A stretch of DNA of 64,000 bases, taken from positions 1 to 64,000 of the forward strand of contig NZ_JHVH01000002.1 in assembly GCF_000620045.1 (NCBI RefSeq), in the 5' to 3' direction. A program made the translations under genes and the position numbers. This DNA comes from Halomonas halodenitrificans DSM 735. GTDB taxonomy: Bacteria > Pseudomonadota > Gammaproteobacteria > Pseudomonadales > Halomonadaceae. Of the stretch, positions 3,603-35,966 are shown in pieces. Each line of letters starts with the position of its first letter. The stretch's first letter is position 1. The notes beneath the pieces are model-generated. The model searched no databases, had not been told where the DNA came from, and was given only the letters and a program-made list of their open reading frames with translations.

Positions 3603-4679
3603 TCACTCCTGATTCTGTTGATCATTGAGTCCCAGTTCCTCGACCCGCTCATCGCCGAACTGTTCGACGAAGGCGGGGGTGACCCGGCTCGTCCAACCAT
3701 CGTCCTCGCGTAATATCATCAGCGCACTCAGCTGATGCTCACGGGCCAGTGCCATGCCCGCTTCCTCGCCCAGCACCATCAGCGCCGTGGCCCAGGCATC
3801 CGCCCAGGCATTGGACGTGTGGAAGACGCTTACCGACGCCAGGCGATGGGTAATCGGCCTTCCGGTACGTGGGTCCAGGGTATGGGAGTAGCGTCGTCCA
3901 TCCTCTTCGAAGTAGTTGCGGTAGTCGCCGGATGTCGCCACCGAGACATCATGCAGCGCCAGCATGTACTGGGCCTCCTGACGATCCGCCAGGGGCGCCT
4001 CGATGCCGATGCGCCAGGGCTCCTGCTCGCCGTCGCGGTAACCGCTGGCGAGCAGGTCGCCACCGAGATTCACCAGATAGTGCTCGATCCCTTCGGCGGC
4101 GAGGAAGTCCGCCACCCGATCCGTGGCGTGGCCCTTGGCCACGCCGCCGAGGTCGATGGTCACATCACGCATGCGCCTTGCCTCACGCTGCCCGGCATCG
4201 AGCTCCAGGGCATCGGTACCGACCCGTTCCAGTCGACGGGCCAGCTCGGCATCGGTGGGGACCTCCTTCGGGCGCGCCTCGGCACCGAAGCTCCAGAGGT
4301 TGACCAGCCCGCCCACGGTCATATCGAAGGCGCCACCGCTCTCCTCGGATACGGTCCGACCGATGGCCAGGACCTCGAAAAGCTTATCGGAAAGCGGCTG
4401 CCACTCCCCCGTCGGTGCCTGGTTGAAGACCATTAGTTCGGAGTCATCGCGGTAAATCGACATGCCGGCGTCCACCGACTCCAGTTCGGCGAGAATCCCC
4501 GTCTCCAGATCGTTAAGCTCGCCACGCGTCAGGGGATCGGCGATGGTCACCTGATAGAAGCTGCCGAAGACACCGCCCTCGAGGCGTACCGGCGAGTCGA
4601 GTGGTCGTTCGCTCTCGGAACAGGCCGATAGTGCAAGCAACAGCAGCAAGGTGGGCAACAGCAGAAGATATCGAATCAC
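3603..4679 (-). CDS. apbE: FAD:protein FMN transferase, ApbE family lipoprotein
   Basis: ApbE-type enzymes use FAD to attach FMN covalently to a threonine of target flavoproteins on the periplasmic side. I chose the GTG at 4677-4679 because GAGGAG stands 7 bases before it and it starts directly at a lipoprotein signal peptide (VIRYLLLLP, lipobox LSAC). The ATG at 4718 would add 13 residues and overlap uppP. From the GTG the protein is 358 residues. Family signatures include DLGGVAKGHATDRV in the middle and DAWATALMVLG near the C-terminus, with DPRTGRPI between them. No Rnf or Nqr target genes are in the window. Confidence 0.93.
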   Translation of the reverse strand: MIRYLLLLPTLLLLLALSACSESERPLDSPVRLEGGVFGSFYQVTIADPLTRGELNDLETGILAELESVDAGMSIYRDDSELMVFNQAPTGEWQPLSDKLFEVLAIGRTVSEESGGAFDMTVGGLVNLWSFGAEARPKEVPTDAELARRLERVGTDALELDAGQREARRMRDVTIDLGGVAKGHATDRVADFLAAEGIEHYLVNLGGDLLASGYRDGEQEPWRIGIEAPLADRQEAQYMLALHDVSVATSGDYRNYFEEDGRRYSHTLDPRTGRPITHRLASVSVFHTSNAWADAWATALMVLGEEAGMALAREHQLSALMILREDDGWTSRVTPAFVEQFGDERVEELGLNDQQNQE

Positions 4680-33346: not shown

Positions 33347-34198
33347 ATGCTTTCCTATCAGCACGCCTATCACGCCGGGAACTTTGCCGATGTTCATAAA
33401 CACCTGCTTCTGCATGGAGTTATCGATCACTTATTACGTAAAGAAACTTCCATTACGTTAATAGATACTCATGCTGGTCGTGGCGTCTATTCTCTGGCCG
33501 CGGAAGAGACCTCAAGATTGCATGAGTATCGCCACGGTATCCTGCCCCTGTGGGAATCCCGCGAAGAGCTCGCGAATCATGATGAACTGTTGAGCGACTG
33601 GTTGGCGGCAGTGGCCGAGGTCCAGCCGAACGATCAGCGGTTGAGCCACTATCCTGGCTCGCCCTGGTGGATGGGGCGGCGTCTGCGATCCCAGGACCGT
33701 CAACTGCTCTTCGAGCTGCACCCGGGGGAGCACGAGCATCTGGCCGGCCAGACGTTGGATGGCCATGTACGCACGATTCACGGCGATGGACTCAAGGGGC
33801 TCGTCGAGCGTTTGCCGGTAAGGACCCCGCGCCTCTGTGTGTTGATCGACCCCAGCTACGAGCTTAAACAGGAGTACGTCGAGGTGGCCGATACGCTATC
33901 GACGACGCTGCGCAAGGCGCGCCATGCTGTGGTGATGGTGTGGTATCCCCTGTTGCCTGCAGGACGTCATCATGAGCTGCTCGAGGCGGTCAAGGCGCAT
34001 GGGTTGCACAAGGTGTGGCGCAGCGAGCTCAGGCTCCATGAGCCGGGAGTGGGCGAACGAGGCATGTATGGCAGCGGTATGCTGGTGGTCAATCCGCCCT
34101 GGGGGCTCGATCAGCGCCTGGCCTCGGCCATGGCGCGTGTAGCACCTCTGTTGTCGAGCGAGGCCCGCTACCAGGGCGACTGGTGGGTAGGCGAGTAG
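33347..34198 (+). CDS. rlmJ: 23S rRNA (adenine2030-N6)-methyltransferase
   Basis: Methylates A2030 of 23S rRNA. I use the ATG at 33347 (MLSYQHAYHAGNFADVHKH), which matches the E. coli N-terminus and gives 283 residues against 280; an earlier in-frame start would add 15 atypical residues. The motif IDTHAGRGVYSL binds S-adenosylmethionine, and IDPSYE (Asp at about residue 168) replaces the usual DPPYE-type catalytic motif. It converges on mnmE, with the tandem array between them. Confidence 0.95.
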   Translation: MLSYQHAYHAGNFADVHKHLLLHGVIDHLLRKETSITLIDTHAGRGVYSLAAEETSRLHEYRHGILPLWESREELANHDELLSDWLAAVAEVQPNDQRLSHYPGSPWWMGRRLRSQDRQLLFELHPGEHEHLAGQTLDGHVRTIHGDGLKGLVERLPVRTPRLCVLIDPSYELKQEYVEVADTLSTTLRKARHAVVMVWYPLLPAGRHHELLEAVKAHGLHKVWRSELRLHEPGVGERGMYGSGMLVVNPPWGLDQRLASAMARVAPLLSSEARYQGDWWVGE

Positions 34199-34203
34199 GC
34201 CAT

Positions 34204-34583
34204 GGCCGGTGTGCCGATCGACTTGCCGATACAGAAGCTGCCGAAGACCCCGCCGAGCGGGGTTACATTAGCGGCGCAGACAGCGCCGTGGCCGGTGTGC
34301 CGATCGACTTGCCGTTCTACTTGTCGATACAGAAGCTGCCGAAGACCTCGCCGAGCGGGGTTATATTAGCGGCGCTGACAGTGCCGTGGCCGGTGTGCCG
34401 ATCGACTTGCCGATTTATTTGCCGATACAGAAGCTGCCGAAGACCCCGCCGAGCGGGGTTATATTAGCGGCGCTGACAGTGCCGTGGCCGGTGTGCCGAT
34501 CGACTTGCCGATTTATTTGCCGATACAGAAGCTGCCGAAGACCCCGCCGAGCGGGGTTACATTAGCGGCGCTGACAGCGCCAT
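34204..34583. repeat. Tandem array of mnmE 3'-end copies (86 + 3 x 98 bp)
   Basis: Four head-to-tail units start at 34204, 34290, 34388 and 34486 (86, 98, 98 and 98 bp), followed by a fifth, native copy that is the end of mnmE itself. Each unit repeats the last dozen codons of mnmE on the minus strand ([15 protein letters not shown], with the CIGK end), then a downstream spacer. The last two full units differ at three positions only. Each contains a CCCCGC-loop-GCGGGG hairpin (for example 34248-34262; one unit has a mismatch). The array sits between convergent rlmJ and mnmE and may serve as a multiplied two-way terminator. Confidence 0.93.
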
Positions 34584-34598
34584 GACCGGTGTGCCGAT

Positions 34599-35966
34599 CT
34601 ACTTGCCGATACAGAAGCTGCCGAAGATCTCGCCGAGTAGATCATCGGCGCTGAATTCGCCGGTGATCTGGCCCAGTGCCTGCTGGGCATCGCGCAGGTC
34701 TTCGGCGAGCAGTTCCCCGGCACCATGGCCGGTCAGCTGGGCCTCGCCGTTCTCGAGCGCGTGCTCGGCACGGTCCAGGGCATCGAGATGGCGCCGTCGG
34801 GCCGAGAAGCGACCCTCTGCCGTCGCATTGAAGCCCATGACATCCTTGAGGTGAGACTTCAAGTTATCCACACCCTCCACGGTCTTCGCCGATAGCCTGA
34901 CGATGGGAGTGGCGGTGGATAAGTCGAGTCCCGGGGGCTCTTCGCTGGCATCGATCTTGTTGCGTACCAGAGTGAGTCGCGAAGGATCGGATAGCCGGGC
35001 CACGAACTCGGGCCAGATCGACATGGGGTCGGTGGCATCGGTGGCGGCGGCATCGACCAGCAGCAACACACGGTCGGCCTTCTCGATCTCGGCCCAGGCC
35101 CGGGCTACGCCGATCTGTTCCACGGCGTCGGGAGTGTCGCGCAGGCCCGCGGTATCGATGACATGCAACGGCATGCCGTCGATATGAATATGCTCGCGCA
35201 GCACGTCGCGTGTCGTGCCGGCAATGTCGGTGACGATGGCCGTCTCCTGCTCGGTCAGGGCATTGAGCAGGCTCGATTTACCGGCATTGGGCCGCCCGGC
35301 GATCACCACGTTCATGCCCTCGCGCATCAGGGCGCCCTGGCCGGCAGCGGCGCGGACCACCGCCAATTCTGTTTTTACCTCGGCGAGCATCGCCGCCACG
35401 CGTCCATCCCCCAGGAAATCGATCTCCTCCTCGGGGAAGTCGATGGCGGCCTCGACATAGATGCGCAGCTCGATCAGGCGCTCCACCAGGCCCTCGACTC
35501 GGCGCGAGAAGTCGCCCTGGAGTGAGCGCAGGGCGTTTTCCGCGGCGGCCTGCGAGCTGGCATCGATCAGGTCGGCAATCGCCTCGGCCTGGGCCAGGTC
35601 CAGCTTGTCGTTGAGGAAGGCGCGCTCGGAGAACTCACCCGGGCGGGCCGGGCGGGCCCCCAGCTCGATGCAACGGCCAAGCAGCATGTCCATGATGACC
35701 GGGCCGCCATGTCCCTGCAGCTCCAGGACATCCTCGCCGGTAAAGGAGTTTGGCCCGGGGAAGAAGAGCGCGAGGCCCTCGTCGATCACGCTGCTATCGC
35801 TTCTGAAGGGCCCGTAGTGGGCATGGCGCGGGGCGGGGGAATGACCCACCACCGCCTCGGCGATCGCCGAGCAGAGCGGCCCGGAGATGCGGATTATGCC
35901 GACGCCGCCGCGCCCCGGCGGGGTGGCCAGAGCGGCGATGGTGTCCTGGTCGTGAAGCGGGGCCAT
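34599..35966 (-). CDS. mnmE: tRNA modification GTPase MnmE
   Basis: Partner of MnmG in wobble-uridine modification. The 455-residue protein has the N-terminal tetrahydrofolate-binding domain ([11 protein letters not shown]), a central helical domain, and the inserted G domain with [14 protein letters not shown] (G1, around residue 226), [10 protein letters not shown] (G3) and NKID (G4). It ends in CIGK, the family's essential C-terminal motif. A perfect DnaA box occurs in the coding sequence at 34864. Downstream is the array made of copies of this 3' end. Confidence 0.98.

Follow-up and report, generated by a model that had tools for sequence, protein, structure and literature searches.

The convergent genes rlmJ and mnmE of Halomonas halodenitrificans DSM 735 are separated by a tandem array whose units are built from the end of mnmE. 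The array lies in a stretch of 64,000 nt from contig NZ_JHVH01000002.1, which we refer to as the window. It is a genuine satellite, derived from the gene and bound to this locus, and it has an inverted component that was not expected. It can be explained without any cellular function. In the reading that we prefer, with a probability of roughly 0.55, the array is a satellite tied to the mnmE end, the first unit of which was produced by an ancestral template switch, followed by slippage or recombination, loss and refreshment of the units.

Tandem copies of the mnmE tail next to rlmJ

TRF resolved a single tandem array between rlmJ and mnmE at 34212-34610, with a period of 98, 4.1 copies and 94% matches, and a repeat search of the window returned spacings of 98, 98 and 98 between the array repeats. 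On the mnmE strand, each unit comprises first a spacer that contains GC hairpins and then a copy of the last 36 nt of mnmE. The features of the locus are listed below.

33347..34198, + strand: rlmJ, the convergent neighbour (Pfam PF04378; the start at 33347 was picked by eye)
34199..34218, - strand: beginning of a further spacer, from the last tail copy to rlmJ (25-bp match at 34199-34223, 96%)
34212..34309, - strand: unit 4, with tail copy 34219-34254
34310..34407, - strand: unit 3, with tail copy 34317-34352
34408..34505, - strand: unit 2, with tail copy 34415-34450
34506..34603, - strand: unit 1, closest to mnmE, with tail copy 34513-34548 and a 50-nt spacer at 34549-34598
34541..34557, no strand: second hairpin of unit 1, ACCCCGCCGAGCGGGGT, also at 34443-34459 and 34247-34263 and, with one mismatch, at 34345-34361
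34567..34581, no strand: hairpin GGCGCTGACAGCGCC of unit 1, with related hairpins in the other units and in the spacers of other species
34599..35966, - strand: mnmE, the source gene (ORF with NCBIfam NF003661 and Pfam MnmE domains)
34599-34634, - strand: the copied tail, that is, the last 36 nt of mnmE
34635..34686, - strand: mnmE segment A, codons QQALG..EFSADD, an inverted copy of which makes up the spacer in related species

The tail copies of units 1 to 4 are identical to mnmE at 32, 32, 34 and 33 of 36 positions, which agrees with the derivation from mnmE proposed in the sequence-only reading of this DNA. That reading had also described four extra copies of the tail between the two convergent genes, as is found by TRF, by the 36-nt tail matches and by the Pfam and NCBIfam assignments of the genes. 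It had extended the array to 34636, an end that takes in the real mnmE tail. Its claim of a perfect GC hairpin in most units was borne out, ACCCCGCCGAGCGGGGT being perfect in three of the four, whereas the three differences that it had counted between the last two units were not reproduced: between the closest neighbours we count 4-5 differences in 98 positions, according to the register chosen.

No dispersed copies of the unit were found in its own genome, where the best match outside the array and the gene end is 22 bp long (4556-4577, E 0.0035). On the minus strand, this stretch reads as FGSFY, and its likeness to the tail unit probably reflects coding similarity by chance. The window gave no Rfam match at gathering thresholds.

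Spread and probable turnover in the genus

We searched 90 genomes of the same genus, one per species, and obtained a match in 86; the four without a match were left out, so that the sample consists of the window and 85 other regions, each oriented on mnmE. At least one copy of the locus's own last 36 mnmE nt is present behind mnmE in 22 of the 86 loci, the window included, at 22/36 or better, and in 21 of them at 25/36 or better. The carrying loci have 1-4 tail copies spaced 43 to 103 nt apart, and copy number thus differs between species from 0 to 4, while the MnmE protein ends in the same 13 letters in 85 of the 86 genes, in line with the earlier suggestion that units can come and go without harm to MnmE. 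No tail copy at 22/36 or better appeared in 1720 shuffled gaps over the 86 loci, although many of these gaps are too short to hold one. As a control, 823 other gene ends from these loci were examined for copies within 450 nt, and a single one reached 25/36. Among mnmE ends, the ORF picker used for this control recovered 18 with copies rather than 21, having skipped some ends. Among the copy-free loci with rlmJ found (n=63), 47 have just 7-35 nt between the two genes. These gaps run to the last matched rlmJ codon and therefore include the rlmJ stop codon; L054 and L136, which have no rlmJ in reach, are outside the gap counts, and genome G079, which is split on two contigs, was counted by its mnmE side (L054). 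Two other loci, L084 and L112 (G054 and G076), share an unrelated gap of 184 nt between mnmE and rlmJ that contains no tail copy.

On an mnmE tree from which the last 60 nt of the gene were omitted, presence of the copies takes 14 changes, compared with a mean of 19.7 for shuffled labels, and 0 and 2 of 500 shuffles in two listings were as low as 14. At least 9 of the 14 changes are forced by well-supported branches. Presence is clustered on the tree, yet with many gains or losses, and the 14 changes make several origins or horizontal spread of the unit possible. An exact array pattern gave five matches in 275 genomes of the family, all in the window's genus, and a second exact pattern matched its own genome only among 369 genomes of the class; both patterns are strict, so that decayed arrays and those with short units escape them. 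A wider scan returned 29 stretches: nine Halomonas mnmE arrays, one Shewanella mnmE tail duplication, two more at mnmE with a chance-like second match and 17 without an mnmE match. The Shewanella case (Shewanella atlantica, L201, bases 1-340) is an independent direct duplication of the mnmE tail (tblastn residues 433-455); a hairpin separates the copies, and the duplication lies near a contig end. No paper on such an mnmE array was found in the open-licence literature, as judged by title and start of the abstract.

The copies are related to the gene that they stand behind. They are closer to their own gene's tail than to label-shuffled tails (0 of 10,000 permutations, uncorrected for kinship), which suggests refreshment of the copies from the gene and retains, from the earlier proposal that recombination keeps the units uniform, some homogenising pull. 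In L071, L076, L078 and L121, some copies are closer to the tails of other species than to their own. The copy farther from the gene is the more decayed one in 8 of 10 multi-copy arrays, with one tie and the opposite in the window. This decay, together with a protein end that hardly varies, speaks against the proposal that the array serves as a template for changing the MnmE end.

Of the 84 loci with rlmJ in reach, 12 have insertions longer than 400 nt between mnmE and rlmJ, as does G079 in addition; the window's 404-nt gap is the array itself. In the four nearest relatives (G038, G080, G068 and G079; L051, L052, L062 and L053), 9.1 kb of DNA are inserted between the array and rlmJ; in G038 this insertion encodes RpiR, N-formylglutamate amidohydrolase, TRAP, glutamine synthetase, aldehyde dehydrogenase and iron alcohol dehydrogenase. 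The best match of the window genome to the cluster's glutamine-synthetase-like protein is only 35% identical, and the cluster is therefore probably missing altogether from this genome. Because the array is cut within a unit at rlmJ, where a 20-nt piece of an extra unit (34199-34218) abuts the gene, the simplest explanation is that sequence was deleted in the lineage of the window. The same 9.1-kb cluster of RpiR, TRAP, glutamine synthetase and dehydrogenase genes lies between mnmE and rlmJ in L116 and L124 (G027 and G032). In G079, the sister genome of the window's, the array itself is also broken by an insertion; both ends (the L053 end and the L054 end) begin with AAGTGCCT and the contigs stop inside it. 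It is probably an insertion sequence.

The spacer and the codons upstream of the tail

Spacer tests covered 20 of the 22 genomes with copies, L060 and L062 being omitted for spacers under 30 nt, and the identity bands were computed also without L054 (n=19). Spacers from distant clades align around CAGCAGTCGGCGCTGAnGCGCCGGCTCACCCGAyGGCTGCTGG and share differences from the gene (CAGCAGTCGG, GGCTCACCCGA), and a GC-rich hairpin is found in most spacers across distant clades. When up to one mismatch is allowed, the hairpin motif is restricted to mnmE arrays in the 90 genomes. The mean spacer identity between species is 0.72-0.87, depending on the gene-identity band, versus 0.61 for shuffled spacers. 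The window spacer scores above shuffles (p<0.05) against 13 of the 19 other genomes, including L058 (0 of 2000 shuffles), L069 (0.001), L056 (0.0015) and L057 (0.0025); it is not above shuffles against L059, L065, L071, L075, L076 and L121. Spacer ancestry is shared between distant clades. Perfecting of the hairpin was considered as a general trend and rejected: compared with the best stem of the gene, the stems are longer in nine cases, equal in five and shorter in six.

As a source of the spacer, a direct copy of upstream mnmE codons was tried and found weak, with p<0.05 in 4 of 20 genomes and 333 of 20,000 shuffles reaching or beating the consensus. The reverse-strand control outscored the forward orientation, and inversion was then tested for this reason. 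Against the reverse complement of the segment directly upstream of the tail, the spacer consensus scores 48, a value reached by none of 20,000 shuffles (maximum 43); among 33,436 background windows taken from these loci, all scores stay below 45 and a single one gets to 40. Aligned with the spacer consensus, the 86 mnmE genes have a mean score of 39.4 in reversed and 24.0 in forward orientation. Genome by genome, p<0.05 was obtained in 9 of 20 for the reversed and 3 of 20 for the forward orientation, and the reversed score is the higher one in 14 genomes, the forward one in five, with one tie. The five with a slightly higher forward score are L055 and four members of the window's own clade (L051, L052, L054 and the window), the window's spacer scoring 24 reversed (p 0.143) and 26 forward. 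With a profile of the segment, nhmmer gave 10 hits in the 33 spacers. They come from five genomes (L054, L057, L058, L072 and the window), lie on the minus strand throughout and have weak E-values (0.016 to 1.8); 660 shuffled spacers gave two hits, one per strand.

The mnmE segment is partly palindromic, which blurs the orientation. In the gene consensus it is bracketed by a 9-bp inverted repeat, CCCAGCAGG ... CCTGCTGGG, with 37 nt in between; pairing of the arms is complete or one position short (8-9 of 9) in 41 of the 86 genes, whereas the window's mnmE keeps 6 of 9 pairs. Judged by these alignments, inversion of the spacer is clear for the genus consensus, and it would carry over to the window mainly through shared spacer ancestry.

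Origin of the units, rival readings and known systems

The mnmE (trmE) 3' end is a known integration site of SGI1-type islands (PMC3285670, PMC9035990), and the copies could be attB scars left there by repeated integration followed by decay or excision. SGI1 sits at the last 18 bp of thdF/trmE according to PMC3285670, an SGI1-related element is reported in Halomonas meridiana in PMC9035990, and the duplicated trmE end expected of an SGI1-type site is present in the array. The last copy also ends 10-27 nt from rlmJ in 14 of 17 insertion-free arrays that reach rlmJ, and 56-64 nt from it in the other three. We nevertheless consider such scars quite improbable as the source of the copies. There is no recombinase gene between mnmE and rlmJ in the window, and none was recognised in the eight insertions, among the thirteen insertion loci, in which the ORFs were read; Pfam, run on ten of these ORFs, gave metabolic, transport and regulatory domains, and, judged by gap length and opening bases, the insertions of L052, L062, L124, L106 and G079 resemble those of their relatives. 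Tyrosine recombinases were searched for in 31 genomes, namely the 22 with copies, the others with insertions and G034; among the matches listed, none lies within about 90 kb of mnmE on the same contig. The exact tail pattern is absent from viral contigs and has no plasmid match. The copied piece, at 36 nt or more, is longer than the 18-bp core, and its last 18 nt are no better kept than its first 18 (105 versus 80 mismatches in 39 copies). The attachment-site reading is weakened by the lack of a recognised recombinase gene beside mnmE, by the empty viral and plasmid searches and by a core that is not the best-kept part, and it has no place for the inverted segment.

Selection on the hairpins is another candidate explanation, in which they act as a two-way transcript end or a 3'-end stabiliser for the convergent pair and the tails merely hitchhike. 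The GC-rich hairpins and the between-species spacer identity described above are what it would predict, and one unit of the window folds better than shuffles (z -3.4). However, the other units are unremarkable (z -1.0 to -1.8), no compensatory base pairs with changes on both sides were seen in 13 aligned spacers, no site with a hairpin followed by a T-run was found in 33900-35000, and most relatives do without the array, as their short gaps show. We therefore find selection on the hairpins doubtful, and the two-way transcription barrier that had been suggested from the sequence was not supported. Repeated origin of the unit in separate lineages, with the mnmE inverted repeat as a mutation hotspot, would account for the patchy presence on the tree, and both the well-paired arms of many mnmE genes and the separate duplication in the unrelated Shewanella genome are in its favour. 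It is unlikely all the same: the differences from the gene that spacers of distant clades share favour one origin, and arms pairing at 8-9 of 9 positions differ little in frequency between genes with copies (12 of 22) and genes lacking them (29 of 64). Finally, a short unit with a hairpin might be taken for a mobile repeat of the REP or MITE kind, dispersed in the genome and carrying the tail by chance, an alternative that had been named together with the original description. We rejected it as highly improbable on the basis of the own-genome search, in which the 98-bp unit was confined to the mnmE locus, and of the hairpin motif search of 90 genomes.

We return to the satellite born of a template switch, for which we regard the switch itself, a single origin, and the manner of gain, loss and refreshment as likely. 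In a common ancestor, a template switch during replication would have produced a second tail and, with it, an inverted copy of the codons that lie directly upstream. Having copied the segment in the reverse direction, the nascent strand would carry CTGCTGG at its end, with which it could anneal to the gene again where the tail begins and copy the tail a second time; CTGCTGG is the end of the inverted segment and also stands directly before the tail in the gene consensus. The product would have the order gene, post-stop bases, inverted segment and second tail, and a template-switch geometry with four switch points is described in PMC8794818. Alternatively, the same product would result if a plain tandem duplication came first and an inversion between the arms of the repeat came second. 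In the spacer inversions reported for yeast in PMC8604942, the arms exceed 9 bp and 2-5 bp are changed; with arms of 9 bp that are 37 nt apart, a spacer inversion here would be unusually long compared with these cases. Once formed, units would multiply by slippage or unequal recombination, would be lost cleanly when the mnmE tail recombines with the last copy, and, near the gene, would be refreshed from it. Just past the mnmE stop in L054 (G079), a 12-bp ATCGGCAAATAA spanning the stop is repeated, a small slip expansion. The variable copy number and the bare gaps of most copy-free relatives fit such multiplication and loss, as do this slip repeat and the more decayed far copies.

A bolder idea, which we offer tentatively and do not expect to hold in full, is that a core gene seeds its own satellite. 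The inverted repeat in the 3' coding end of mnmE would make replication throw hairpin-plus-tail units past the stop, and recombination would keep these units similar to the gene, with concerted evolution of the gene and its non-coding array across the genus as the result.

Bacterial intergenic tandem repeats, such as minisatellites and VNTRs, consist of head-to-tail copies of about 100 bp in variable number. The array resembles them in being made of head-to-tail copies of one unit of about 100 bp, also variable in number, but its unit is built from the coding end of a neighbouring gene and remains bound to that gene across species. With the SGI1-family sites, as outlined in PMC3285670 and PMC9035990, it shares the duplication of the same gene end with the gene left intact; it differs from them in forming an array without a recognised recombinase gene, in the longer copy and in the inverted piece in the spacer. 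Although mobile islands are well known to integrate at this site, copies of the mnmE tail do not by themselves demonstrate one there. Further parallels are template switching and the inversion of inverted-repeat spacers, for which PMC8604942 and PMC8794818 describe homogenisation of the arms together with inversion of the spacer or loop, and in which, as in the genus consensus here, a short inverted repeat and a reverse-complement copy of a nearby segment are involved. The inverted piece is about 50 nt in our case, not 2-5 bp as in the yeast inversions of PMC8604942. Unlike in the template-switch cases, the event would also duplicate a coding tail outside its gene, and the product became a tandem array across a genus. 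The many species with copies, with none or with decayed ones, and the independent Shewanella duplication, serve as natural replicates in which the birth, turnover and loss of a satellite can be traced. The locus thereby joins template-switch mutation at short inverted repeats with the birth of tandem repeats, two subjects that are usually studied apart.
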